DNA of 64,000 nt from Lachnospiraceae bacterium (lineage in GTDB: Bacteria; Bacillota; Clostridia; Lachnospirales; Lachnospiraceae), in NCBI GenBank assembly GCA_017624855.1, contig JAGAMF010000002.1, positions 1 to 64,000 of the forward strand, written 5' to 3'. The position numbers and the translations under genes were made by a program. Below are positions 14,855-59,484 of this stretch, in pieces. Numbering within the stretch: the first letter of the stretch is position 1; each line of letters begins with the position of its first letter. Below the pieces are notes generated by a model. The model was not told the origin of the DNA and ran no database searches. It saw nothing but the letters and a program-made list of their open reading frames with translations.

Positions 14855-17776
14855 CTAGCGGAAAAGAGGTTCCACATGCTTGAATAAGTTTTTCTCGTTT
14901 TCGATGGCATTGCTGTTACCGATAACACAAATGCAATTCTGTTCGAGGAATGTCTTCATATATACGGCAAGTCCGCGAATATCTTCTTCGGTGGTTCCCA
15001 ACAACTCATCTCTTTCCTTCTGCAATATCTTTTCATCCATATTGGTTAAATATGCACCCAAAGAACGCTTGCCCTTAGCTGAAGGTGTCAGGGGTGTATC
15101 TTCACCGCTTAAGGTTCCGATAATATACTGAGTCATTTCACGCTCATCTGCTGTAAACTTCTCCAAATATTCTACAACCTTTTCATACACTTCAACGGTT
15201 TTACCCAAATTGGGATCGCGATAAGAAACAAAATATGCGACACCGTTTCTGCGGAAGCCGGACATACATCCGTATGCCCCACCTTTTACGCGGACATTAT
15301 TCCACAGATAATCGTAACCCATGATGACACGAAGTACTTTTAATGAGCCCGTGTAAGTTAAACCGTTTCTTCCGTAATCTCCGGCACGACATACATACTG
15401 TACCTGGGCAGAGGTCTGAAAACCTTCGTTTTTAATGCTTACGGGCACAATTCTGTCATATTTCTCAATCGGTTCCGTATGAAGCTTTGCCTTGAAAGCC
15501 GCAAAGATTTCCCGAAGATTTCCCTCTTTATCCAAAGGAGAGGTGAAACTAATCATAATGTTTTCGGGACGGAACAACATCTTCATTAACAACTGAAGCT
15601 TCTTAATTACATCACCCTTCTCTTCTTCAAAGTTCTTTTCAATCTTTTCCAAAAGACGATAAAAGGGAATTCCACCCATCATATCCGTCAATGCACAACT
15701 TTCACGAATATAGGAAGATGCACGCATTGCTGCAACGGAATGGGCTCCGCTCATAAACTGAGACTGCATTCTTGACATGCACTCCGCAATAATATCATAA
15801 AGTCTCTTCTCATCGGTAACATTGGTACGCAAAAGAATTTCTTCGATTAAATCAAAGCCCTTCTGCATATTCTCGTATAAAACCTTGGTGGAAACCTCAT
15901 ATAAAACACGATATCCTTTATCTTTGTTTACATCTTCATAAATAGCGATTCCACCGGAAATTCCGCCTGTATGCAAATGTATTTCATTAAACAAATCACC
16001 ATAAGTATGATTCTCGGTATCCATATATCCCAAAACATTTTTTAAAATACCTGTATAAGCCAACAACTCCGTGGGAATGTGATCCGCATTGAACGCAAGT
16101 CTTACATAACCGATACCGTTTGTAAAATAATCATGGCGAAGATAAGTCGTACCGTCAATGTCTTCCACCCGATTGCTAAGCGGAAGGATTTCTCTGCGCA
16201 AATCCTCTCTTGTAAGCAAAGGAATCTTCTCCATATCTTCTTTGCTGTCCGGAGTTTCCTGATATTCCTTTAATGCCTTGGTTTCCTGCACAATAGCATC
16301 TATTTCTTCCTTGCTAAGACTATTTTTATAATCTGCAAGTTTCTTCGCAAGCGCAGCTTCCTTACGGTCTCCCAAGCCTTTTACGGGAACTGCGGTTACG
16401 ATGGTTTTATGGGTATTGTCTAATAAATACTTCTGCAACAGATGTTCAAAATAATCGCTATCAATCTTTTTCTTCAAAGCCGCGAAGGTATCATTTGCCT
16501 CAATATGCCAAAATACCTTGGCATCATCATATAACCAGCTGTCCATCACCTGCATTCCGTACATCAATCCCTTGGGATAAGAGCCGAAATCCGCTTCACG
16601 ATATTTGAATTCAAAGTACTGAATTGCCGCAGCCAGAGATTTTTTATCAATTCCGTTGGTAACCAACTCTTTGATTACCGCTTCAATTGTTGCAACAAAT
16701 TCTTCCTTACGGTTGCTGTCCGTATTCTTAGCAATCACAGAAAAATACGGCTGGCAAATACCGTTTTCATATACGCTGTAAACATCCTTACCGATTCCCT
16801 TGTTAATCAACGCTGTCTTCAAAGGGGCACCGGGTGCGGAGCAAACGGCATAATCCAGAATCTGGAACGCCACATACAACTCTTTGTCAAGGCTGTCACC
16901 AACAATTGCATTGTATGAAAGATATGCATTTCCCTCTTCTGATTCCGCTTCGGAAATGGGATACTCAATCTGAAGGTCTTTTATCTCTTTAAATGCATCC
17001 TGTGTCTTAATCTGAGAATCGATTTCCAAGGCATCAAATTCACTTAAATAGTGTTCGTCAATAAACTGAAGTCTTTCTGCCATATCCATGTCGCCATATA
17101 AATAAATATAGCTGTTGCTGGGATGATAAAAACTTTTATGGAAGGCAATAAATTCTTCGTAGCTTAATTCCGGAATCACATCCGGATCTCCACCGGATTC
17201 CACGCCATATGCGGTATCCGGAAAAAGAGAATTCATAATCTCGCGCTCCAACACATCATCCGGCGAAGAAAAAGCACCTTTCATTTCGCTGTAAACCACG
17301 CCGTTGATGGTCAACTCATCTTCGGTACTTTCCAGTTCATAATGCCAGCCTTCCTGCTCGAAAATTTTCTTCTCATTGTGAATATTGGGATAAAATACCG
17401 CATCCAGATACACATGCATAAGATTCTTGAAGTCCTTATCATTGCAGCTTGCTACCGGATATAATGTTTTATCGGGAAAAGTCATGGCATTTAAAAATGT
17501 ATTTAACGATCCTTTTGCCAACTCGATAAAAGGGTCTTTTACGGGAAATTCCTTTGAACCGCAAAGTACCGTATGCTCTACAATATGAGCTACACCTGTA
17601 CTGTTATGGGGCGGTGTACGAAATCCGATATAAAAAACCTTATTGTTATCGTCATTGGATAAAAGAGCCACTTTTGCACCGGTTTTTTTATGTCTTAAAA
17701 CAATACCCTCACTGTTTAAATCTTCAATATTTCTTCTTTCCAGAATTTCATATGCAGTCAATTCTTCCAGTCTCAT
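14855..17776 (-). CDS. M16C metallopeptidase, presequence-protease like
   Basis: 973 residues, the length of PreP/Cym1-type peptidases (two fused M16 halves with a linker). The inverted zinc motif HIVEH is at residues 64-68, and the second half is inactive as is normal. The family's VKDPFIELAKGSLNTFLNAMTFPDKT stretch follows at about 78-103, where the FxxxxKGSLxTFLNA core is diagnostic. There is no signal peptide, so it is cytoplasmic. It probably degrades oligopeptides or unfolded short proteins. It has its own terminator downstream and follows the EAL-domain gene, from which it is separated by a terminator. Confidence 0.93.
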   Translation of the reverse strand: MRLEELTAYEILERRNIEDLNSEGIVLRHKKTGAKVALLSNDDNNKVFYIGFRTPPHNSTGVAHIVEHTVLCGSKEFPVKDPFIELAKGSLNTFLNAMTFPDKTLYPVASCNDKDFKNLMHVYLDAVFYPNIHNEKKIFEQEGWHYELESTEDELTINGVVYSEMKGAFSSPDDVLEREIMNSLFPDTAYGVESGGDPDVIPELSYEEFIAFHKSFYHPSNSYIYLYGDMDMAERLQFIDEHYLSEFDALEIDSQIKTQDAFKEIKDLQIEYPISEAESEEGNAYLSYNAIVGDSLDKELYVAFQILDYAVCSAPGAPLKTALINKGIGKDVYSVYENGICQPYFSVIAKNTDSNRKEEFVATIEAVIKELVTNGIDKKSLAAAIQYFEFKYREADFGSYPKGLMYGMQVMDSWLYDDAKVFWHIEANDTFAALKKKIDSDYFEHLLQKYLLDNTHKTIVTAVPVKGLGDRKEAALAKKLADYKNSLSKEEIDAIVQETKALKEYQETPDSKEDMEKIPLLTREDLRREILPLSNRVEDIDGTTYLRHDYFTNGIGYVRLAFNADHIPTELLAYTGILKNVLGYMDTENHTYGDLFNEIHLHTGGISGGIAIYEDVNKDKGYRVLYEVSTKVLYENMQKGFDLIEEILLRTNVTDEKRLYDIIAECMSRMQSQFMSGAHSVAAMRASSYIRESCALTDMMGGIPFYRLLEKIEKNFEEEKGDVIKKLQLLMKMLFRPENIMISFTSPLDKEGNLREIFAAFKAKLHTEPIEKYDRIVPVSIKNEGFQTSAQVQYVCRAGDYGRNGLTYTGSLKVLRVIMGYDYLWNNVRVKGGAYGCMSGFRRNGVAYFVSYRDPNLGKTVEVYEKVVEYLEKFTADEREMTQYIIGTLSGEDTPLTPSAKGKRSLGAYLTNMDEKILQKERDELLGTTEEDIRGLAVYMKTFLEQNCICVIGNSNAIENEKNLFKHVEPLFR

Positions 17777-17854: not shown

Positions 17855-20644
17855 TTAGGTTTGTAATTCCGTTTCGTTACAGAACTTCGGAATATAAATG
17901 TGAATATTTTCAAATAACTCTGAAGGTTCTGCGAGGTACTGATAGGTACCCTCCGTGGTTTCAATCTTTTTACGATAAGATTCCTGGGTTTCAATCACCT
18001 TTTGGTATACAGGCATACCGTAAGCATTTACAGGTTGTACACCATCGCCAATATCACAGAAGATATTACCGCCGGTAATTTCCAAACGACCTTTTAAACC
18101 GCCCAGAGATAAGGGATTGGCTGCCAGCAGAACAATTTTAACGGTACCTGTTCGAATATAGGTATTACCGCCGCCGCGATAGTTACCGATACCGCCCACA
18201 TCCGAGCCTTCCACATATACAAATACTTCCTTACCAAAAATATATGTATCAACATCACCGTCTTTGGAACCGATTCCCACACCTTCCATACAGTGTAAAA
18301 GAATCTTGACCTTACCGTCATTAATGGCAACTTTACCCGCTCTGTCCCAAAGACTTCCGATACCGGTAGACACACTACCGGAAACATCCATTTCAATATT
18401 GGCAATAGACGCAATGTCCACATCACCGTTAAATGATCCAATACCGATGGAATCTGCCGCCGAAGACGAAATGGCAATGTCACAGTTATCCAAAATAATT
18501 CTGGTAGGTCCCTGCATGGAACCGATACCGATGGATTTACTGCCTGTAGCAATAATTTCGATATTACCGGTAGAAATCTTTATCTCAGAATCCTCATCCG
18601 CAACCACACCACCGATACCGATGGCGATTTCGCCGTTGGTTTCTACACGAATGGTTCCCTTGCTTTCAATTAAAATATTACCGTAAGCTTCATTTGAAGC
18701 ACAACCGATACCCACACCATTATTATGGTCTACATGTATGGTTAAATCTCCGTCACCCTGAATAATTAACTTTGATGACTTCGGTACATGAATACCCTCA
18801 TATGAAAGTATATTATCACCTTCCACGCAAAGGATTACCTTACAATTTTCACCGATTTCAATTGCCGGAGCTTCTCTACCTCGTAAATTAATGTTTGATA
18901 TGGTAATAACCGACTCCACATTATCCTTTACGCGGATACCCATGCATACTTCTCTTCCGGTTTCTCCCACAATTTTAACGGTAGAACAATCAACATAAAT
19001 CTGAGAGTAGAAATCCAACGCCAGATTTACAAGAGAAATTACATCATAATTGCTTGCTTCGTATATTTTATTTTCATAAGCCAGTTTTGCCAGCTTAAGA
19101 TTAATCGCCACAATCTGATTCTCAATATCTTCATTGATATGATCTACAATCTGAGAATTGGGTCTTCCGGTATAAAAGCCCTGAATCAAATGACAACCCA
19201 GCTGAATAACCATCTGCAATTCTTCTGCGGTTTCAACACCTTCCGCAAGAATCTTCATATTATGGTTATTTGCAAACGATACATAGCTGGAAACCAAATG
19301 CTGTTTCTTACTGTCTGTGTCGATACCCATAATCATGGAATGATCAATCTTTAAATAGTTGGGACTGTTATTCAACAATGTAGATGCGTTGGAATAACCG
19401 GTACCGTAATCATCCAGAGCCAGCTCGCAACCGCTCTTCTCCATGTATTTATGTACAGCCGCACAGGACTCTTCGGACTGCATACCGTTTTCTGTAATCT
19501 CTATTACAAGATTGCCCATAAGTCCCTGATAAGTATTCAGCAATTCATCAAATTCGTTCTCTTTTAAAATTGCGGTAGGAATACTGTTCAAAAACAACTT
19601 ACGGTCTTCAAAAATTCCACCGTGCTCATTCATGATTTTAAGAACATTAAAGAAAGTGTAATGCTCTACTTCATACAAGCGGTCCTGACGCTGTGCCAGT
19701 TCCAAAATATCCACGGGACTTAACCCAATTTCAGCCTTGGAACGCATCAATGCCTCATATGCATAAATTTTACCGGTCTTGGCACTTACAATAGGCTGGA
19801 ACTTATAATGCAATTCGTTGCGGTCCAAAAGGATTCTAAGCTTATTGTCCTTCATGTATTCCGTTTCCTGACGCTTAAATGCATCCGGGGAGAAATAATG
19901 AGGATCCGACTTACGGAACATTACCGCTTCATATACGGCAAAACTTGAATTCTTTACCATTTCTTCCACTGTTGCGGCATGTCTGGGGAAATTACTGTAA
20001 CCGCAGTATGTGGTAAAATTCTCGGCTGTGGGTAATTTTAACAGAATCTCATTAATAGAAGCTGTAAGGTTCTGCAAATCCACCTTTAAATCCTGACGGT
20101 CACAATCCTGTACAAGAACCATCAGTTCATGACCTGATTTGCTTCCGCATAAAACATTTCTTTCATTTCGAAGTTTCTGATAATCTTTTAGAATCTGTCC
20201 GATTTCCGCCATGGTATCTGCGGCTTTCTGATATCCCACAAAATGTCTTAAATGCTCGATACCTTCAATCTGAAAACACGCAAGATAACAGGTTGTAAGA
20301 GCAAGCTGTGTTCTGGTATCCGCCTGCTTTATAAACTGATCGTAATATAAAAGTCCCGACTCCGGGTCCACATCTTGTGATTCCAAGAGATTGGCATATG
20401 CAGGAATATCGTCTCGTTGAAAGGCTTTTACCATTTTTATGGCAATTACAAGGCCTACCACAAACAGTACAATACCTGCACAAACATATATGTACGAAAT
20501 CCAATAAGAAAAACCGGATACCCAAAAATTATATACACCTACTGCAATCAACAGAAATGCCAATACGATAAAGACATTTTCCGTCACCAGGTAGTATCTG
20601 ATTTTTTTGTATCCGGTCTTTTTTGAATTATTCTCCCGTTCCAT
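17855..20644 (-). CDS. Membrane EAL c-di-GMP phosphodiesterase with C-terminal GIG-repeat domain
   Basis: 929 residues. There are two membrane helices (about 23-42 and 47-70), then a GGDEF-like domain (about 92-250) in which the GGDEF signature is replaced by KSGHE, so it should not make c-di-GMP. The EAL domain (about 265-505) has all usual catalytic elements: EALMR (297-301), FLNSIP (351-356), IEITENG (381-387), DDYGTGYS (411-418), LKID, AEGVET and QGFYTGRP. It is predicted to hydrolyse c-di-GMP. Residues about 555-870 form a repeat domain with seven G-I-G turns near 645, 676, 706, 734, 761, 790 and 818, spaced 27-31 residues, like the rungs of a right-handed beta-helix of the Cthe_2159 (DUF4353) carbohydrate-binding type. 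Two membrane helices would keep this domain in the cytoplasm, which is odd for a carbohydrate binder. A promoter and a palindrome lie just upstream. Confidence 0.9.
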   Translation of the reverse strand: MERENNSKKTGYKKIRYYLVTENVFIVLAFLLIAVGVYNFWVSGFSYWISYIYVCAGIVLFVVGLVIAIKMVKAFQRDDIPAYANLLESQDVDPESGLLYYDQFIKQADTRTQLALTTCYLACFQIEGIEHLRHFVGYQKAADTMAEIGQILKDYQKLRNERNVLCGSKSGHELMVLVQDCDRQDLKVDLQNLTASINEILLKLPTAENFTTYCGYSNFPRHAATVEEMVKNSSFAVYEAVMFRKSDPHYFSPDAFKRQETEYMKDNKLRILLDRNELHYKFQPIVSAKTGKIYAYEALMRSKAEIGLSPVDILELAQRQDRLYEVEHYTFFNVLKIMNEHGGIFEDRKLFLNSIPTAILKENEFDELLNTYQGLMGNLVIEITENGMQSEESCAAVHKYMEKSGCELALDDYGTGYSNASTLLNNSPNYLKIDHSMIMGIDTDSKKQHLVSSYVSFANNHNMKILAEGVETAEELQMVIQLGCHLIQGFYTGRPNSQIVDHINEDIENQIVAINLKLAKLAYENKIYEASNYDVISLVNLALDFYSQIYVDCSTVKIVGETGREVCMGIRVKDNVESVITISNINLRGREAPAIEIGENCKVILCVEGDNILSYEGIHVPKSSKLIIQGDGDLTIHVDHNNGVGIGCASNEAYGNILIESKGTIRVETNGEIAIGIGGVVADEDSEIKISTGNIEIIATGSKSIGIGSMQGPTRIILDNCDIAISSSAADSIGIGSFNGDVDIASIANIEMDVSGSVSTGIGSLWDRAGKVAINDGKVKILLHCMEGVGIGSKDGDVDTYIFGKEVFVYVEGSDVGGIGNYRGGGNTYIRTGTVKIVLLAANPLSLGGLKGRLEITGGNIFCDIGDGVQPVNAYGMPVYQKVIETQESYRKKIETTEGTYQYLAEPSELFENIHIYIPKFCNETELQT

Positions 20645-48271: not shown

Positions 48272-50788
48272 TTACTCTTCTTCGCCCCAAATCTTCTTGT
48301 TGAGTTCGATATCCTTCTTCTCAACCAATTCGAGAACTGCCTTAGCTTTATTCTGTTCAGCTGTAGCCTTCTTCTCATCATTAATGAGAAGTTCTAAGTT
48401 ACTTGAAATAATATCAATATTATTCTTAAACTCCTGAATCAATTCAGCAGTCTTAACCTTGGCAACTTCTGTAATTTCATCAATATATGAGTCAAACTGC
48501 TTTCTTGTTGTCTGGGCAAACATTGTCTCTACGTCATTTTTATATGACTTCTTATCATTTGTAGAGAAAATGAAGATTGCTTTCTGCTTATTGATATAGT
48601 CATCCATCTTCAATGCTGTTAAGCTTGAAGGAGGAATCTGTGTATCCGCAACATTTGTAATTCTCTTAATGAGTTCCTCGTCGATTCCCTTATAACCGGT
48701 AATCTTCTTAACGATGATACCCTTTAATTCTTCAATCTGCTGCTGTAAAATTCTACCACGATTTACCTTGTAGTAGTCATCAATTTCCTGTAAGTAACGA
48801 TTCAATTCGTTACGGATGATATTGTTCTTCTCCTCAAATACTTCGGGACGAAGCGCAATCCATTTCATCTTATCCGCAATATGACCTGCCTGAATCTGAC
48901 GGTTACCCATTACAGTATACAATGTATTGATATCGTCAATCTGGAATACCATGTTTTCTGTGGTCATATTCTGCAAATAATCTGCATAAGCCGCATCAAT
49001 ATCGCTTACCATGCTGGTCTTCATTAACTCGATATTCTTAGCAATTTCTTCCTTGGACAATCTTGCCTGATTTTCAATTACTTCATAATCTTCCTTAATG
49101 AAGTTTACAACATTCTTAATACCGTCATAAAGGCCTTTTGCCTTAACCGCCAATGCATATTTCTGTGCATACTTAATAATTTCCTGCTCAATGGCAAACA
49201 TACCTGAGTTTACATAGAGACGCTGAATAATGGGATAAAGACTTGCGTCTTCCGGATTATCACATTTCTTCAATTCTTCCATACACTCTTCAATAAGCTG
49301 CTTGGTTTCGTTGTCCGCATTAGCCATCTTATCCAGCTTGAAGTACATACCTGTTTCTACTTCGGAAGCCTTTGTCTTGCCTAAGAAAGGATCTTCAACC
49401 GGCTCATTGTTGATTTCGTTTCTATGGTTTGCAAGCCATCTTCTCTCTTCTTCCGTATCTACATTGTTGTTAATTGCTTTCGCAATATATGCAGCCTTGG
49501 AAGATACAAAGAACAATCTTTCTTTTGCCAAATCAATATGCTGAGCTTCTTCGTTATAAATCTTATCTGTTTCTTTTAAGGTAACTTCAACCTTCTTGTT
49601 CTTCAATTCCGCAAGATCCGCAAGACCCTTGGTATCTGCCTGATTGATTACATGCAATGAACGGGTTAAATCGATGGTAACATTACTACCGTTCTCCTGC
49701 TCATTCTTAGAAGAATTAATCAAGTTATATAAAATAGAGTTACCGGTACCTTCCATCTTGGTAGGCTCATAGAGCACAATCAAAATAGAATTGGTCTGCT
49801 GATGCAATGCTTTCTGAAGTACCAACAAATGCTCGTTGGAATTACTGTCGGTACCCGGTGTATCATAGAAAGTAAAGTTAATGTTTTCATCCAAAGGAAT
49901 GGGGAAATTAACTTCAATGATACCGTCAATATATTCTTCACACTCCGCTGTGGGCGCATTGGGAATATCGTTTAATTTCTTCAAAACCTGATAAAGCTGT
50001 TCATGCTGCTGAAGGCGGAACATAAGGGCAGAATTAATCTCGCCGTTTACTTTCTCCTGTGTGAATTCACACTCACCGTCTGCATGGAATGCAAACTTCT
50101 TCTTTGTTTCATCCCATACGATATTGGCAATAATTGCCTTATCGCTGTCACCCTTCTTAACAATAAAGGATACCGCAGGCTTCTCACTGTTTTTAATACG
50201 GAACATCTTTGCCGTTTCGGAATTAATACTTTCCGGCAAAATTCTCTTACCGATTAAAGCATTGATAAATGTAGATTTACCTGCACTATATGTACCAACC
50301 AAACAAAGATTAACATCATTCTTGTTCAGTTTCTCTCTTTTTACTTCAAATTCAGCCTTGCGGGTTAAGAATGATTTCTGAATATCGGACCCCTGTAATT
50401 CCTTGCTGAACACATTAATGGTATCATCACAGAATTCGCTGATACAGGTATAAATATCAGCTACTGCCGGAAGCTCGATAAATTTACCGATTACAAAACG
50501 CTCTTCTCCCGAAGTTTCATTATACTCTTTTACTTTCTTTTCAAAATCTTCATAATCGATTTTGGTGCCCTTAAAAACAAGACTTACCTTGTCTCTCAAA
50601 AACTGCTCCCAAATATCCTCGAAGAATTTATTTCCGTGATTCTGTAATAAAAATTCGCCTTTATCAGGTCCGTACTGTGACAACCAGGGACACATAGCAT
50701 ACGGAATCTCAACAAACTCCCCCTTCGCCTTCGCCAAGAAACGAATTTCTTTTTTTACAGGATGATACATAATCATCAATTCTTTCAT
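48272..50788 (-). CDS. Dynamin-family GTPase
   Basis: 838 residues. An N-terminal region of about 155 residues is unrecognised. The GTPase domain then starts with the P-loop GTYSAGKST (165-173), then DTPGTDS for G3 and an atypical G4 NQAD (instead of NKxD). A long helical stalk (about 480-830) follows, without transmembrane helices, and no paddle is obvious. Bacterial dynamins remodel membranes, some in stress or phage defence. Which job this one has cannot be told. It has its own strong promoter and a bidirectional terminator, so it stands alone. The usual arrangement of paired dynamin genes is not seen. Confidence 0.85.
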   Translation of the reverse strand: MKELMIMYHPVKKEIRFLAKAKGEFVEIPYAMCPWLSQYGPDKGEFLLQNHGNKFFEDIWEQFLRDKVSLVFKGTKIDYEDFEKKVKEYNETSGEERFVIGKFIELPAVADIYTCISEFCDDTINVFSKELQGSDIQKSFLTRKAEFEVKREKLNKNDVNLCLVGTYSAGKSTFINALIGKRILPESINSETAKMFRIKNSEKPAVSFIVKKGDSDKAIIANIVWDETKKKFAFHADGECEFTQEKVNGEINSALMFRLQQHEQLYQVLKKLNDIPNAPTAECEEYIDGIIEVNFPIPLDENINFTFYDTPGTDSNSNEHLLVLQKALHQQTNSILIVLYEPTKMEGTGNSILYNLINSSKNEQENGSNVTIDLTRSLHVINQADTKGLADLAELKNKKVEVTLKETDKIYNEEAQHIDLAKERLFFVSSKAAYIAKAINNNVDTEEERRWLANHRNEINNEPVEDPFLGKTKASEVETGMYFKLDKMANADNETKQLIEECMEELKKCDNPEDASLYPIIQRLYVNSGMFAIEQEIIKYAQKYALAVKAKGLYDGIKNVVNFIKEDYEVIENQARLSKEEIAKNIELMKTSMVSDIDAAYADYLQNMTTENMVFQIDDINTLYTVMGNRQIQAGHIADKMKWIALRPEVFEEKNNIIRNELNRYLQEIDDYYKVNRGRILQQQIEELKGIIVKKITGYKGIDEELIKRITNVADTQIPPSSLTALKMDDYINKQKAIFIFSTNDKKSYKNDVETMFAQTTRKQFDSYIDEITEVAKVKTAELIQEFKNNIDIISSNLELLINDEKKATAEQNKAKAVLELVEKKDIELNKKIWGEEE

Positions 50789-55343: not shown

Positions 55344-55949
55344 CTACAAGGAAATAAAATTTTTCAATATTGCCATACCCACATCGGAACTCTTTTCCGG
55401 ATGGAACTGGCAGGCAAACACATTGCCCTGCTCTACCGCTGCGTGAATGCACACACCGTATTCCGTAGTAGCCGCCACCATATCTTCCGCTTCTGCTTTC
55501 AGGTAATAAGAATGTACAAAATACACATAAGCACCTTCTTTGATTCCTTTAAAAAGCTTGGTCTCCTTTGTAAAATGCAATGAATTCCAGCCCATATGAG
55601 GAATTTTTAAATCCTCTCCCTCGGGAATTCTGAGAATTTTACCGGGAAGAAGTCCCAGACCTTTTACGCCGGGAGTTTCATCGCTTTCTTCAAACATTAA
55701 CTGAAGCCCCAAACAGATTCCAAGAAAAGGGGTTCCCTTATCAACGATCTGTCGAATTACACTTTCCAACCCATAGCTTCGGATTTTATCCATGGCATCG
55801 CCAAAAGCTCCAACACCGGGCAAAATCACCTTATCCGCCTTCAGAAGCACCTCGGCATCTCTTGTTATAGTTACTTCCTCCCCCAACGCCTGTAAAGCTT
55901 TTTCCACACTTTTAATATTTCCTGCATCATAATCAATTATTGCTATCAT
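55344..55949 (-). CDS. hisH: Imidazole glycerol phosphate synthase glutaminase subunit
   Basis: 201 residues from the ATG at 55949 (GAGGAG upstream); eleven additional in-frame codons upstream are rejected. The glutaminase triad is the Cys in GICLGLQLMFEES and the His/Glu of FHPEKS. It supplies ammonia to HisF. Confidence 0.96.
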   Translation of the reverse strand: MIAIIDYDAGNIKSVEKALQALGEEVTITRDAEVLLKADKVILPGVGAFGDAMDKIRSYGLESVIRQIVDKGTPFLGICLGLQLMFEESDETPGVKGLGLLPGKILRIPEGEDLKIPHMGWNSLHFTKETKLFKGIKEGAYVYFVHSYYLKAEAEDMVAATTEYGVCIHAAVEQGNVFACQFHPEKSSDVGMAILKNFISL

Positions 55950-56002
55950 TATGTCTCCTCGGCACCGTACATTTTCATACATAGTGCCTCAACCGTTATT
56001 TT

Positions 56003-58507
56003 TTAATTCGCAAAATTCACCGAACCGCCTTCCACAGAGCCTGAATACAGTTCGTTATCATTTCCGGAAGGCAAGTCTTGCGTTTCCGAAGGTTCTTCAT
56101 TCTCCTGCTGAAGCTGTTCAATAATTGCTTCTTCTTCCGGAAGGAGGTCTTCCAATTCATCCGCATTCAAACCGCCGTCTTCCGCCGGAGCCTCAACTTC
56201 TTCTTCCGAATTTTCAACCGAAGCTTCACCACCGTAATTTGACAGATCATCAAAAGTTTTTCCCGCCAATACATTCTCAACCGCTACCGTATAGTCGGGA
56301 TTACGCAACCCGCAAATTTGCTCAACAGTTTCCGCATCCAAACCGAACTGCTTTTGTAACGCATCCGTAAACATGTCGCGCATCATTTTCCACTCTGCCA
56401 TAATGCCCAAACGATCCGCCAAATTTTCTTCCTTATCACAGGCAATTACTCCCTGTAAAAGAGTATCCAACGCATCCTTTGTCATACCGCGTTTTACATA
56501 GATTTCATACTGATGATACCGCTCTTCAAGGCCATACAGCAACTCTGCTTTTTCATACAGTATTTTATCGCTTTCATTCAAATCCTGTCCCATAAAACGC
56601 ATGGCAGCTTCTTCATAGTTGCCGTTATAAAAGGCAGCTCGTGCTGTCATAAGAGACAACTGACGGGGCAGGAAATAGGTTCCCACAAGAATCAGTCCCA
56701 AAAGCGATGCACACACCAACAAAGTTGCCACAATTCCCTTGGTTCCGATGGAATGTCTGGCTTCCCGTTTTTCGGCCTCAATCTCCGCCGGTGTTTTCTC
56801 AGATACAACAACCTTTTTGGGTTTCTTTTCTTTTGCCGGCTTTTCTTTCTTCTTTGCCTTCTTCTTATCTTCCTCTTCCAATTCCGCTTCAATGGCAGCA
56901 TTCTCATCCGATACTTTACCGCCTTTGGCTTCTTTTTTCTTTTTCTTGGAAACTTTTTCTTTCTTTGCTTTTGCAGGTTTGGTTTCAATAGCATCCAATT
57001 GATTCATCGGATCTAAATCATCCGGATTCTCAGCTTTTGCTCCGTCACCTTCTGCACTTTCATCTTCAAGGCTTTCGTCCTCAAACATAAAAGCAGCGAT
57101 TCTGTCTTTTAAAGAAACCTTATTCTTCTTCTCTTTAACAGGCTTCTCTTTCTTAACCTTTTCTTTTTTGGCTTTCTTTTTCTTCTTCGGTGTCTCTTCC
57201 GCTTCACCGGAAGATTCAGAAGCCTCAGCTTCTTCATTTAATACATTATCAACAGCCTCTTGTGCCGCTTTTTCATCAGCCTCGCGGTTTGCAAGACTTT
57301 CCTGCATGCTCTCTTCTTCAAACTGACTGAGCATGGACATAATATCTTCTTCCACCTGTGCATCCGGCATGGCAGACTCTTTTTCCTCTGCCATCTTAGC
57401 CGTTGCTTCCAACATAGCTTCTACATTATCGATATCCAGAAGCATCTCTCCGTCAAAATCCGGAATATCAATAATCTGTCTTTCTTCGTTTTCACTCTGT
57501 GTTTCATCCGTTTCTTCGGAGGCATCTTCCATAAGACTATCCAATAAAAATGCCTCTGCATCTTCCTGTAAGTCCGGCATTAACTCTTCCGGCATCTCTT
57601 TTGAAGAATCTACCAGTACATCTGCAATATCGCCAAGTCCTATTTCTTCCAGTTCTTCTCTGGTAAGACCAATATCACTTGTTTTTTCTGCCCCCTCATC
57701 GTTCTGAGGCATTTCTTCCCAAGTTTCTACCACATCCGGTTCCGGTGCCTTTTCTTCTGCTGTGGGTTCCGTTCCTGCATCGTCATTTCCCATAGATGCA
57801 AACAATGCTGCAATCTCATCCGGTGACAACACTCCCGTATTGGAAACTTCCGGTGCAGGTTCTGCAACCTTCACTTCCAGTTCTGCCACTACTTCAGGCT
57901 CTGCCTCTTTCGTCTCTGTTTCTGCATTATTTTCCATAGACGCAAACAGTGCAGCAATCTCATCGGGTGACAACACTCCCGTATTGGAAACTTCAGGCGC
58001 AGGTTCTGCAACCTTCACTTCCGATTCTGCCTCTGCTTCCGGCTCTGCCACCACCTCAGGTTCTGCCTCTTTCGTCTCTGTTTCTGCATTACTCTCCATA
58101 GACGCAAACAATGCAGCAATCTCATCCGGTGACAATACACCTGTATTAGTAACCTCAGCGGCTGGAGAAACTGCTGTTTCCTCCGGGATATCCATAATAT
58201 CCTCTTGTACTGCTTCCGGCTTAGAATCTTCTTTTTCAGGTGCTTTTTCAGGCACAGTTTCCGCCACCTGTGTCGCATATTGCGTCATAAAATCATCGGA
58301 GTCATCTTCCTCTTCATCACTTGCAACCTCTAACCCTAAAAGCAGAGCAAGTTGCTTTTGCAAAACTTCCTCTGTCAATTCCGATTCATCAAGTTCTTCA
58401 ATCGGCTTCATTTTTTTATGTTTTTTACTCGAATCATCTTCGTGCTGTGCATCCTGCTCATTCACCGAAGCAAGTAATTGGTCTAAATATTCTTCCGTAG
58501 ACTGCAT
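56003..58507 (-). CDS. Acidic membrane protein with three FliM-like EIxAL motifs
   Basis: 834 residues, family not recognised. Residues 1-590 are mostly disordered, acidic with Lys-rich tracts (about 440-465, 510-530, 548-566), and should be cytoplasmic. NTGVLSPDEIAALFASM occurs three times (121-137, 175-191, 223-239) with small changes outside it. VLSPDEIAALF closely follows the FliM/FliY N-terminal peptide LSQxEIDALL, which binds phosphorylated CheY. One membrane helix (591-613) follows, then a helical TPR-like region outside (about 620-755, AAFYNGNYEEAAMRFMGQD) and an acidic tail. cheV is directly upstream. I infer that the motifs dock a CheY-like receiver, such as that of CheV, to the membrane. 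No FliM-type C-ring domain exists in it. Confidence 0.8.
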   Translation of the reverse strand: MQSTEEYLDQLLASVNEQDAQHEDDSSKKHKKMKPIEELDESELTEEVLQKQLALLLGLEVASDEEEDDSDDFMTQYATQVAETVPEKAPEKEDSKPEAVQEDIMDIPEETAVSPAAEVTNTGVLSPDEIAALFASMESNAETETKEAEPEVVAEPEAEAESEVKVAEPAPEVSNTGVLSPDEIAALFASMENNAETETKEAEPEVVAELEVKVAEPAPEVSNTGVLSPDEIAALFASMGNDDAGTEPTAEEKAPEPDVVETWEEMPQNDEGAEKTSDIGLTREELEEIGLGDIADVLVDSSKEMPEELMPDLQEDAEAFLLDSLMEDASEETDETQSENEERQIIDIPDFDGEMLLDIDNVEAMLEATAKMAEEKESAMPDAQVEEDIMSMLSQFEEESMQESLANREADEKAAQEAVDNVLNEEAEASESSGEAEETPKKKKKAKKEKVKKEKPVKEKKNKVSLKDRIAAFMFEDESLEDESAEGDGAKAENPDDLDPMNQLDAIETKPAKAKKEKVSKKKKKEAKGGKVSDENAAIEAELEEEDKKKAKKKEKPAKEKKPKKVVVSEKTPAEIEAEKREARHSIGTKGIVATLLVCASLLGLILVGTYFLPRQLSLMTARAAFYNGNYEEAAMRFMGQDLNESDKILYEKAELLYGLEERYHQYEIYVKRGMTKDALDTLLQGVIACDKEENLADRLGIMAEWKMMRDMFTDALQKQFGLDAETVEQICGLRNPDYTVAVENVLAGKTFDDLSNYGGEASVENSEEEVEAPAEDGGLNADELEDLLPEEEAIIEQLQQENEEPSETQDLPSGNDNELYSGSVEGGSVNFAN
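57791..58147 (-). repeat. Three coding repeats of the FliM-like motif
   Basis: The motif copies lie at 58147-58097, 57985-57935 and 57841-57791. The surrounding tandem units are about 54 and 48 codons long, containing also KEAEPEVVAE and VKVAEPAPEVS segments. The high DNA identity between units points to recent duplication. Confidence 0.9.
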
Positions 58508-58553
58508 GAAACATCCTCCTGCGTCAGGTTTGAAACCTTATTATCAGAGTAGA

Positions 58554-58581
58554 AAAAGCCGGGGCATTACTCCCGGCTTTT
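58554..58581 (-). terminator. Terminator of cheV
   Basis: AAAAGCCGGG (58554-58563) and CCCGGCTTTT (58572-58581), eight-base loop; the minus strand continues in T after the stem. It separates cheV from the downstream membrane-protein gene, so coupling would need read-through or a second promoter. Confidence 0.85.
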
Positions 58582-58587
58582 GAAAAC

Positions 58588-59484
58588 TTATGAAAGAACC
58601 AAAGCGTCAATCTCTCTAACCAGATTTCCGATTTCAGGTTTTGTGAGCTGAACGTTTGCACCAAGTGCCTCTCCCTTTCTTCTCATATCATCATTGATCA
58701 GGGAAGAGAAAATCATAACCGGGATATCCTCTGTTGCGCTGTCCTCACGAATGAGTTTCAACAAATGATGTCCGTCCATCTGCGGCATTTCAATATCGGT
58801 AATAACCAATTTTACATGTTCATCAAGAACATCTTTTGCCTTACAGTCCTGAATCACATTCCATGCTTCCAATCCGTTCTCACAGCTGATGATGTTGCAA
58901 TACCCCGCTTTCTTTAAGGAGTCACAAATCAAAGCATTCAAAAGAGCCGAATCTTCTGCAATCAAAATAGGGATATCGTTTCTTTCTCTTACACCCAAAG
59001 CTTCTACTTCCGAAACTTTAAGTCCGGTATCCGGATTAATGTCGGATACAATCTTTTCAAAATCAAGAATAATAATCAATTTGCCGTTTACATTGATAAT
59101 ACCGGTAGAAATACCGTCTTCCGCAGAAACAACCGTTGCGCTGGGTTTTACAATATCTGCCCATGAAACACGATGAATTCCTACAACAGACTCTACATGA
59201 AAAGCAATGTCCAGCTTATTAAAGTTTGTTACAATAAATAAACCGCCGGGTTTTCCTTCACCAAGCTGCAAGCAATTGGATAAATCAATCGCTGTAATCA
59301 TAAAATCACGAGGCATAAAAATACCTTCGATGCTGGGATGTGCATTAGGCACCAATGTTACAGGCTGATAAGGAATAATTTCTCTAATCTTAGCCACATT
59401 AATACCGTAGGAATTACCACCCACTACAAACTCCAATACTTCCAACTCGTTCGTACCGTTTTCTAAAAGAATTTTGCTGTCCAT
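58588..59484 (-). CDS. cheV: Chemotaxis coupling protein CheV
   Basis: 298 residues. Residues about 12-150 form a CheW domain (LEFVVGGNSYGINVAKIREII) and about 171-296 a receiver domain with the acidic pair ED (177-178), phospho-acceptor Asp230 in VITDIEMPQMDG and Lys282. CheV links receptors to CheA and tunes adaptation. The receiver has all conserved residues. The neighbouring membrane protein with FliM-like motifs is a possible partner. No other chemotaxis gene is in the window. Confidence 0.96.
   Translation of the reverse strand: MDSKILLENGTNELEVLEFVVGGNSYGINVAKIREIIPYQPVTLVPNAHPSIEGIFMPRDFMITAIDLSNCLQLGEGKPGGLFIVTNFNKLDIAFHVESVVGIHRVSWADIVKPSATVVSAEDGISTGIINVNGKLIIILDFEKIVSDINPDTGLKVSEVEALGVRERNDIPILIAEDSALLNALICDSLKKAGYCNIISCENGLEAWNVIQDCKAKDVLDEHVKLVITDIEMPQMDGHHLLKLIREDSATEDIPVMIFSSLINDDMRRKGEALGANVQLTKPEIGNLVREIDALVLS

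Follow-up and report, generated by a model that had tools for sequence, protein, structure and literature searches.

The stretch examined here, hereafter the window, comprises 64,000 nucleotides from a Lachnospiraceae bacterium (GCA_017624855.1, contig JAGAMF010000002.1, positions 1 to 64,000) and carries next to cheV a gene for an 834-residue membrane protein whose tail repeats a peptide similar to the CheY-docking peptide of FliY and FliM. Comparative analysis showed that this protein, the founding example of what we call the scaffold family, shares its operon with one particular lineage of CheV and co-occurs with the flagellum, and the repeated FliY-like motif beside cheV suggests, judging from the sequence, a membrane-bound catcher or sink for CheY. 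The scaffold family is unnamed and undescribed. Lachnospiraceae are common motile gut bacteria, and to our knowledge their chemotaxis signalling has been little studied. The features of the locus, with motif copies scored by a position-specific scoring matrix (PSSM), are as follows.

56003..58507, minus strand: CheV-linked scaffold, founding example, 834 residues (open reading frame listing and orthologue searches)
58097..58147, minus strand: motif copy 1, NTGVLSPDEIAALFASM, residues 121-137 (exact match; PSSM 24.0 bits)
57935..57985, minus strand: motif copy 2, NTGVLSPDEIAALFASM, residues 175-191 (exact match; PSSM 24.0 bits)
57791..57841, minus strand: motif copy 3, NTGVLSPDEIAALFASM, residues 223-239 (exact match; PSSM 24.0 bits)
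58463..58498, minus strand: N-terminal motif TEEYLDQLLASV, residues 4-15 (also STEEYLDQLLASV, residues 3-15), the scaffold family's commonest short motif
57383..57445, minus strand: tail segment MLLDIDNVEAMLEATAKMAEE, residues 355-375, tentatively a further helical motif (conserved by eye in orthologues)
57071..57121, minus strand: conserved segment KVSLKDRIAAFMFEDES, possibly an amphipathic helix lying on the membrane (orthologue alignment)
56669..56737, minus strand: membrane helix, residues 591-613 (from the sequence)
56246..56668, minus strand: conserved C-terminal domain of about 150 residues after the membrane helix (alignments A1 and A3)
56123..56170, minus strand: conserved C-terminal LNADELEDLLPEEEAI (orthologue alignment)
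58588..59484, minus strand: cheV, CheW domain and receiver (Pfam), 80 bp upstream of the scaffold gene
55344..55982, minus strand: hisH, 20 bp downstream of the scaffold gene, a conserved neighbour in 19 of 19 loci

A first-pass annotation of this DNA had described the three exact copies of NTGVLSPDEIAALFASM, and a protein tethered by one membrane helix (591-613) and devoid of a C-ring domain; all of this was confirmed. The scaffold matched no Pfam or NCBIfam family above cut-off, and FliMN_C (SpoA), FliM/FliN, C-ring and catalytic CheZ domains were all unmatched in these two collections; a relationship to C-ring proteins or to CheZ was rejected on these grounds. Residues 1-590 form an acidic tail (169 D+E vs 69 K+R), and a Lys-rich stretch precedes the membrane helix, so that the charge distribution makes an N-in/C-out topology likely and the C-terminal domain is probably extracytoplasmic. 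The membrane helix and the C-terminal domain are the best conserved part of the protein; this domain and the conserved N-terminal motif had not figured in the first-pass annotation. For the C-terminal domain, no confident known family or solved structure was found (the best weak match was FliS, E 0.022), and the motif region gave a single alignment with solved structures, an artefact.

Pairing with CheV and the flagellum

A pairwise search of 61 genomes found the protein in 20, comprising its own genome, 15 of 30 from the same genus and 4 of 6 others from the same family, and in none of the 24 from other families of the order, on which the profile described below was not run. FliMN_C was present in every protein-bearing genome but the window's own, and in one (G016) of the 15 same-genus genomes lacking the protein. 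Among 19 relative loci examined, hisH, probably a metabolic bystander, follows the scaffold gene in all and cheV precedes it in 18, the contig ending in the remaining one (G034).

A profile built on the membrane helix and C-terminal domain (A1) extended these results to 299 Lachnospiraceae genomes, of which 122, from 122 genera, matched, including one weak match (G182, E 1.6e-4) and one partial (G200); the window protein, itself part of the profile, matched at E 1.5e-72. FliMN_C was found in 150 of the 299 genomes and CheV (E <=1e-60) in 134, and the 122 scaffold genomes contained FliMN_C (FliM/FliY) in 116 cases and CheV in 113. Flagellin was matched in all five genomes examined of the six without FliMN_C (G000, G200, G221, G227 and G288; the sixth, G182, was outside that search). 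The family thus tracks the flagellum, and the earlier proposal that the protein controls something other than a flagellar switch found no support. The cheV neighbourhood proved to be conserved: in 101 of the 103 cases in which one contig holds both genes, cheV has the same orientation as the scaffold gene and lies no more than 8 kb upstream of it (exceptions G343 and G233).

The linkage concerns a particular CheV lineage. CheV genomes without a scaffold-family match number 21, and their CheVs, except that of G068, are 49-54% identical to the window's, while two scaffold-bearing genomes (G146 and G155) have solely distant CheVs, on other contigs. In a collection of named records (the best 80 of more cheV loci), 65 loci have the scaffold gene, every one downstream and on the same strand, among them records named Kineothrix, Robinsoniella and Acetatifactor. 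Fewer than 2 kb follow cheV in 11 of the 15 remaining loci, and in the other four (L308, L309, L315 and L324) the scaffold gene is absent from the 3.8-7 kb after cheV. Inspection by eye of 14 cheV loci belonging to the order's other families showed no scaffold-like neighbour.

The window's own genome has three flagellin-N and six MCP-signal matches, which led us to reject a flagellum-free CheV module; FliMN_C was unmatched and one CheW-domain match was found. As this assembly is 74.5% complete, the missing FliMN_C is most simply explained by missing sequence.

Several other genes accompany these loci. A sirtuin-like protein, kin of the solved SIR2-family structure 5A3A (profile E 6.2e-27), is encoded at 41 of the 96 one-per-genus cheV-scaffold loci (L164:1031-1867, L171:3005-3775 and 39 further among L164-L259) and at 50 of the 80 named cheV loci; its gene sits between cheV and the scaffold gene in the eight loci examined, and it had no match in the window. 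Seven same-genus genomes (G002, G004, G015, G021, G024, G025 and G028) have three or four CheW-domain matches each, some in CheA-length frames, with no FliMN_C match and no CheV-length frame among the matches listed, and these genes possibly belong to a non-flagellar chemosensory array. Elsewhere in the window lie an 838-residue dynamin-family GTPase-like protein (48272-50788), also found beyond the his genes in many relative loci, and a 929-residue EAL-domain protein (17855-20644), a candidate cyclic di-GMP phosphodiesterase.

FliY-like motifs and their carriers

CheY-binding motifs have been reported, in excerpts of the sources, at the N-terminal end of FliY in B. subtilis (PMC8809382) and at the N-terminus of FliM in Caulobacter (PMC7534056). 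On a PSSM built from 28 FliM and FliY N-terminal peptides of same-genus relatives, whose FliY N-termini resemble GILSQDEINALLSGM and FliM N-termini SEVLSQNEIDNLLKAL, each NTGVLSPDEIAALFASM copy scored 24.0 bits, against 16.1 for the best of 300 whole-protein shuffles, which bears out the resemblance noted earlier. The mean BLOSUM62 score of the window motif against in-family FliY peptides was 29.7 (maximum among 2000 shuffles, 19.3), and a degenerate DNA pattern for [PA][DE][DE]IAAxxA matched just the three motif copies in the window's own genome.

Orthologues were represented by 116 tails, 96 of them one-per-genus and 20 from the pairwise search. A score of at least 13 bits was reached by 31 of the 116 (48 matches; shuffles mean 0.9, maximum 3), and a universal FliY-like motif in the family was rejected on this count. 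Among the 96 one-per-genus tails, 18 reached at least 13 bits (local shuffles mean 1.8, maximum 5; reversed sequences 2) and seven at least 16 bits (none in shuffled or reversed sequences); matches numbered 26 per 46123 residues in these tails vs 1 per 14265 residues in 32 other window proteins. The FliY-like core in scaffold tails is therefore real, but belongs to a minority of orthologues. The expectation that the motif would be conserved was accordingly borne out in part: the closest relatives retain the core and it reappears in other genera, while most orthologues are without it. Far commoner is the N-terminal EEYLDxLLxS, found in 85 of the 116 orthologues and in 77 of the 96 one-per-genus sequences (shuffles <=1). 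By eye, the orthologues at nine loci (L185, L198, L199, L201, L207, L230, L236, L241 and L252) start with a CxxC...CxxC zinc-ribbon-like segment.

In the tails of other genera the core recurs as a cassette, (D)PNxx[LM]SxDEIAALFA, present between one and eleven times; the window's version is without the DPN start. A regular expression for the cassette matched 23 of the 116 tails, 16 of the 96 one-per-genus tails (shuffles <=1) and 20 of 65 named proteins, the first and last of these sets overlapping, with eight copies in G133, six in G095, five in G253, four in G106 and three in G230. The flanks of the copies vary while the core stays. Across all 299 genomes the DNA pattern matched 134 sites, spread over 53 of them, against 3 for the reversed control; by our own assignment, 56 sites lie in the scaffold family (12 genomes, eleven of the sites in G154), 64 in a second protein family, here family 2 (29 genomes), and 14 elsewhere. 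Eleven of these strays are chance-like, five of which are a single site recurring in one type of protein, and three are telling. The FliY of G161 (L421:843-2270, with CheC, CheX and FliMN_C matches) carries MLSPEEIAALVAG in the linker between its CheC and FliN domains, the docking peptide being absent from its N-terminus; a short protein of G308 ends in DPNKQLSPEEIAAMFANI; and another protein, in G286, has four cassette copies, the last near its C-terminus.

The same data bear on a simpler explanation, in which the tail is a fast-evolving acidic spacer whose "DEIAAL" helices grew by slippage and are partnerless or self-associating. Many tails do hold other repeats, such as EEPVVEE or SLDDLS: at least three copies of some 9-mer occur in 35 of the 116, of which, in our reading, only about nine have a FliY-like repeat. 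Slippage in a spacer fits poorly with a cassette that recurs across genera, that ends the proteins of an unrelated family and sits in the linker of a FliY, that keeps its core while the flanks differ, and that places 120 of the 134 genome-wide sites in two carriers (reversed control 3), and we consider this explanation improbable.

Family 2 is a flagellate-linked membrane coiled-coil protein unrelated to the scaffold. Judged by eye, a pair of hydrophobic stretches at the N-terminus is followed by a part that resembles a coiled coil and by a tether rich in Pro and acidic residues, and the motif comes last; the FliY-like motif forms the C-terminal end in 28 of 30 loci (including G305), the two remaining frames being cut by contig ends. 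A seven-sequence profile (E <=1e-5) found family 2 in 43 of the 299 genomes, 42 of them with FliMN_C (Fisher P 4e-13); in the 43rd, G221, FliMN_C was unmatched and flagellin is present. Genes for ParB, DUF4446 and DUF3881 adjoin family 2 in 12 of 20 loci (L388-L407), a ParA gene occurs in seven and an HD-domain gene in five, these identities coming from Pfam on one example each.

This neighbourhood is relevant to the possibility that the scaffold is a HubP/FimV-like landmark protein, whose motifs bind a placement factor (ParA-/FlhG-like or an array protein) and not a receiver. The layout is shared, since FimV and HubP also combine, according to PMC12918733, one membrane helix with a domain on the side of the cell wall and a long acidic region in the cytoplasm; family 2 lies near parB in 12 of 20 loci and parA in seven, and other parts of the scaffold tail are conserved too. 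We nevertheless regard a landmark function as unlikely, given that LysM and FimV were unmatched in the scaffold (Pfam), that the motif is FliY-like, and that in one FliY it replaces the N-terminal peptide.

The two carriers are distributed in a complementary manner. Cassettes in scaffold tails are known in 20 genomes, by the DNA pattern over all 299 genomes and the regular expression over the tails examined, and family 2 occurs in 40 of the 122 scaffold genomes; the overlap is zero (hypergeometric P 1.5e-4, ignoring shared ancestry). When CheV sequences were divided at 67% identity to the window's, a cut chosen after the data were seen, the scaffold cassette was found in 17 of 40 genomes at or above the cut and 0 of 70 below it, and family 2 in 0 of 40 and 38 of 70, respectively; this typing covered 110 of the 134 genomes with CheV and excluded the window's own, G068 and 22 with distant CheVs. 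The split follows clade and may represent one or a few evolutionary switches, and it fits a cassette that has moved between membrane carriers.

Probable docking partner and proposed role

The first-pass annotation had pointed to CheV as a neighbour with intact key receiver residues, and D178, D230 and K282 are indeed present in the window's CheV and kept in 96 of 96 linked CheVs. The position that we take to correspond to CheY Tyr106 in the docking face (Gln279) is occupied by Gln in all 96 linked CheVs examined and in 13 of 14 unlinked ones, so the docking face of the linked proteins is not distinctive at this point. A CheY encoded alongside FliY was found in 29 of 30 loci, the window's family supplying 15, and Phe occupies this position in 29 of 29. 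The contrast between Gln in CheV and Phe in CheY makes CheY the likelier docking guest, as far as sequences can indicate, and the case for CheV as the docked partner was lowered by the replacement of the aromatic residue. The motifs might still dock the receiver of their operon partner, giving the membrane a phosphate sink specific to CheV. The operon linkage (101 of 103 same-contig cases) and the intact phosphorylation residues (96 of 96 receivers) would agree with such a sink, a role previously proposed for CheV (excerpts of PMC12691637, in which the role of CheV and of its phosphorylation is termed uncertain). Gln at the Tyr106 position and the absence of the cassette from most linked orthologues make it the least probable of the explanations weighed here.

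We propose that the scaffold is a single-span membrane dock of flagellar chemotaxis, multivalent for CheY and probably for phosphorylated CheY (CheY-P), a reading to which we give about an even chance of being correct. The FliY-type peptides would form helices that dock on the alpha4-beta5-alpha5 face of CheY. FliM and FliY peptides prefer CheY-P, and the same preference would be expected of the scaffold peptides. Several CheY molecules could thereby be held at the membrane, close to a pole or to the receptor array. In this way the scaffold would serve to buffer CheY-P, to localise it or to present it, so that it might be dephosphorylated by FliY- or CheC-type phosphatases or exchanged with CheV, while anchorage or placement of the scaffold would fall to the C-terminal domain on the outer side of the membrane. 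A broader proposal, which we offer tentatively and with clearly less confidence, is a distributed membrane-bound CheY-docking system, in which one cassette, in arrays of up to eleven copies, on at least three unrelated carriers (the CheV-operon scaffold, the parAB-linked coiled-coil protein and the FliY linker), kept by clades that exchange one carrier for another, would serve as a tunable multivalent CheY-P sink or relay.

Several observations weigh against a CheY dock. The cassette is known in about 20 of the 122 scaffold genomes and so cannot be the function of the whole family, and 34 of the 150 FliM/FliY genomes have no scaffold-family match, hence the flagellum does not need the scaffold. 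Even within the genus, the orthologues examined comprise four with strong copies, eight with one derived copy (17-23 bits, e.g. LDMDEIDAIL) and four with weak ones. The N-terminal EEYLDxLLxS is only weakly FliM-like (mean 3.8 bits vs -12.9 for shuffles). Acidic repeats of quite different sequence are also common in scaffold tails, and family 2 sits in a parA-parB neighbourhood, away from chemotaxis genes. Finally, a PreP-type M16 peptidase in the window (14855-17776) contains a FliM-like string, NSLSKEEIDAIVQET, of 15.8 bits, which we attribute to chance.

Should the motif dock CheY, these bacteria hold their chemotaxis messenger at the membrane through multivalent arrays, and we know of no such arrays from E. 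coli or B. subtilis. The core string DEIAALF was not found in the literature searched, and in literature on CheV, Lachnospiraceae and chemotaxis the scaffold protein appeared in no title among the matches listed. The motif offers a directly testable peptide and, if it docks CheY, would provide a function for two unnamed protein families and a way into the dispute over what CheV does.

Comparison with known systems

CheV, an adaptor with a receiver, is the conserved operon partner of the scaffold, which has neither domain. CheZ holds CheY-P mainly through a short C-terminal helix on a flexible tether (excerpts of PMC1447658), and family 2 similarly has its motif at the extreme C-terminus; unlike CheZ, which was unmatched in Pfam and NCBIfam, the proteins described here are membrane-anchored. 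HubP and FimV resemble the scaffold in having one membrane helix, an extracytoplasmic domain and a long acidic cytoplasmic part, and in their association with flagella and with chemotaxis placement (PMC12918733). The scaffold differs from them in its lineage, in its N-terminal tail and in its FliY-like peptides, and neither a LysM-like periplasmic domain nor the cytoplasmic C-terminal FimV TPR domain was matched in it (Pfam). With respect to the docking peptides of B. subtilis FliY and C. crescentus FliM, the scaffold motifs score strongly on the PSSM but are internal, repeated and borne by a membrane protein without CheC or C-ring domains, with Ala in place of Asn/Asp and Phe in place of Leu; what they share with those peptides is the core [LM]SxDEIxAL[LF], presented as a helix on a flexible tether.

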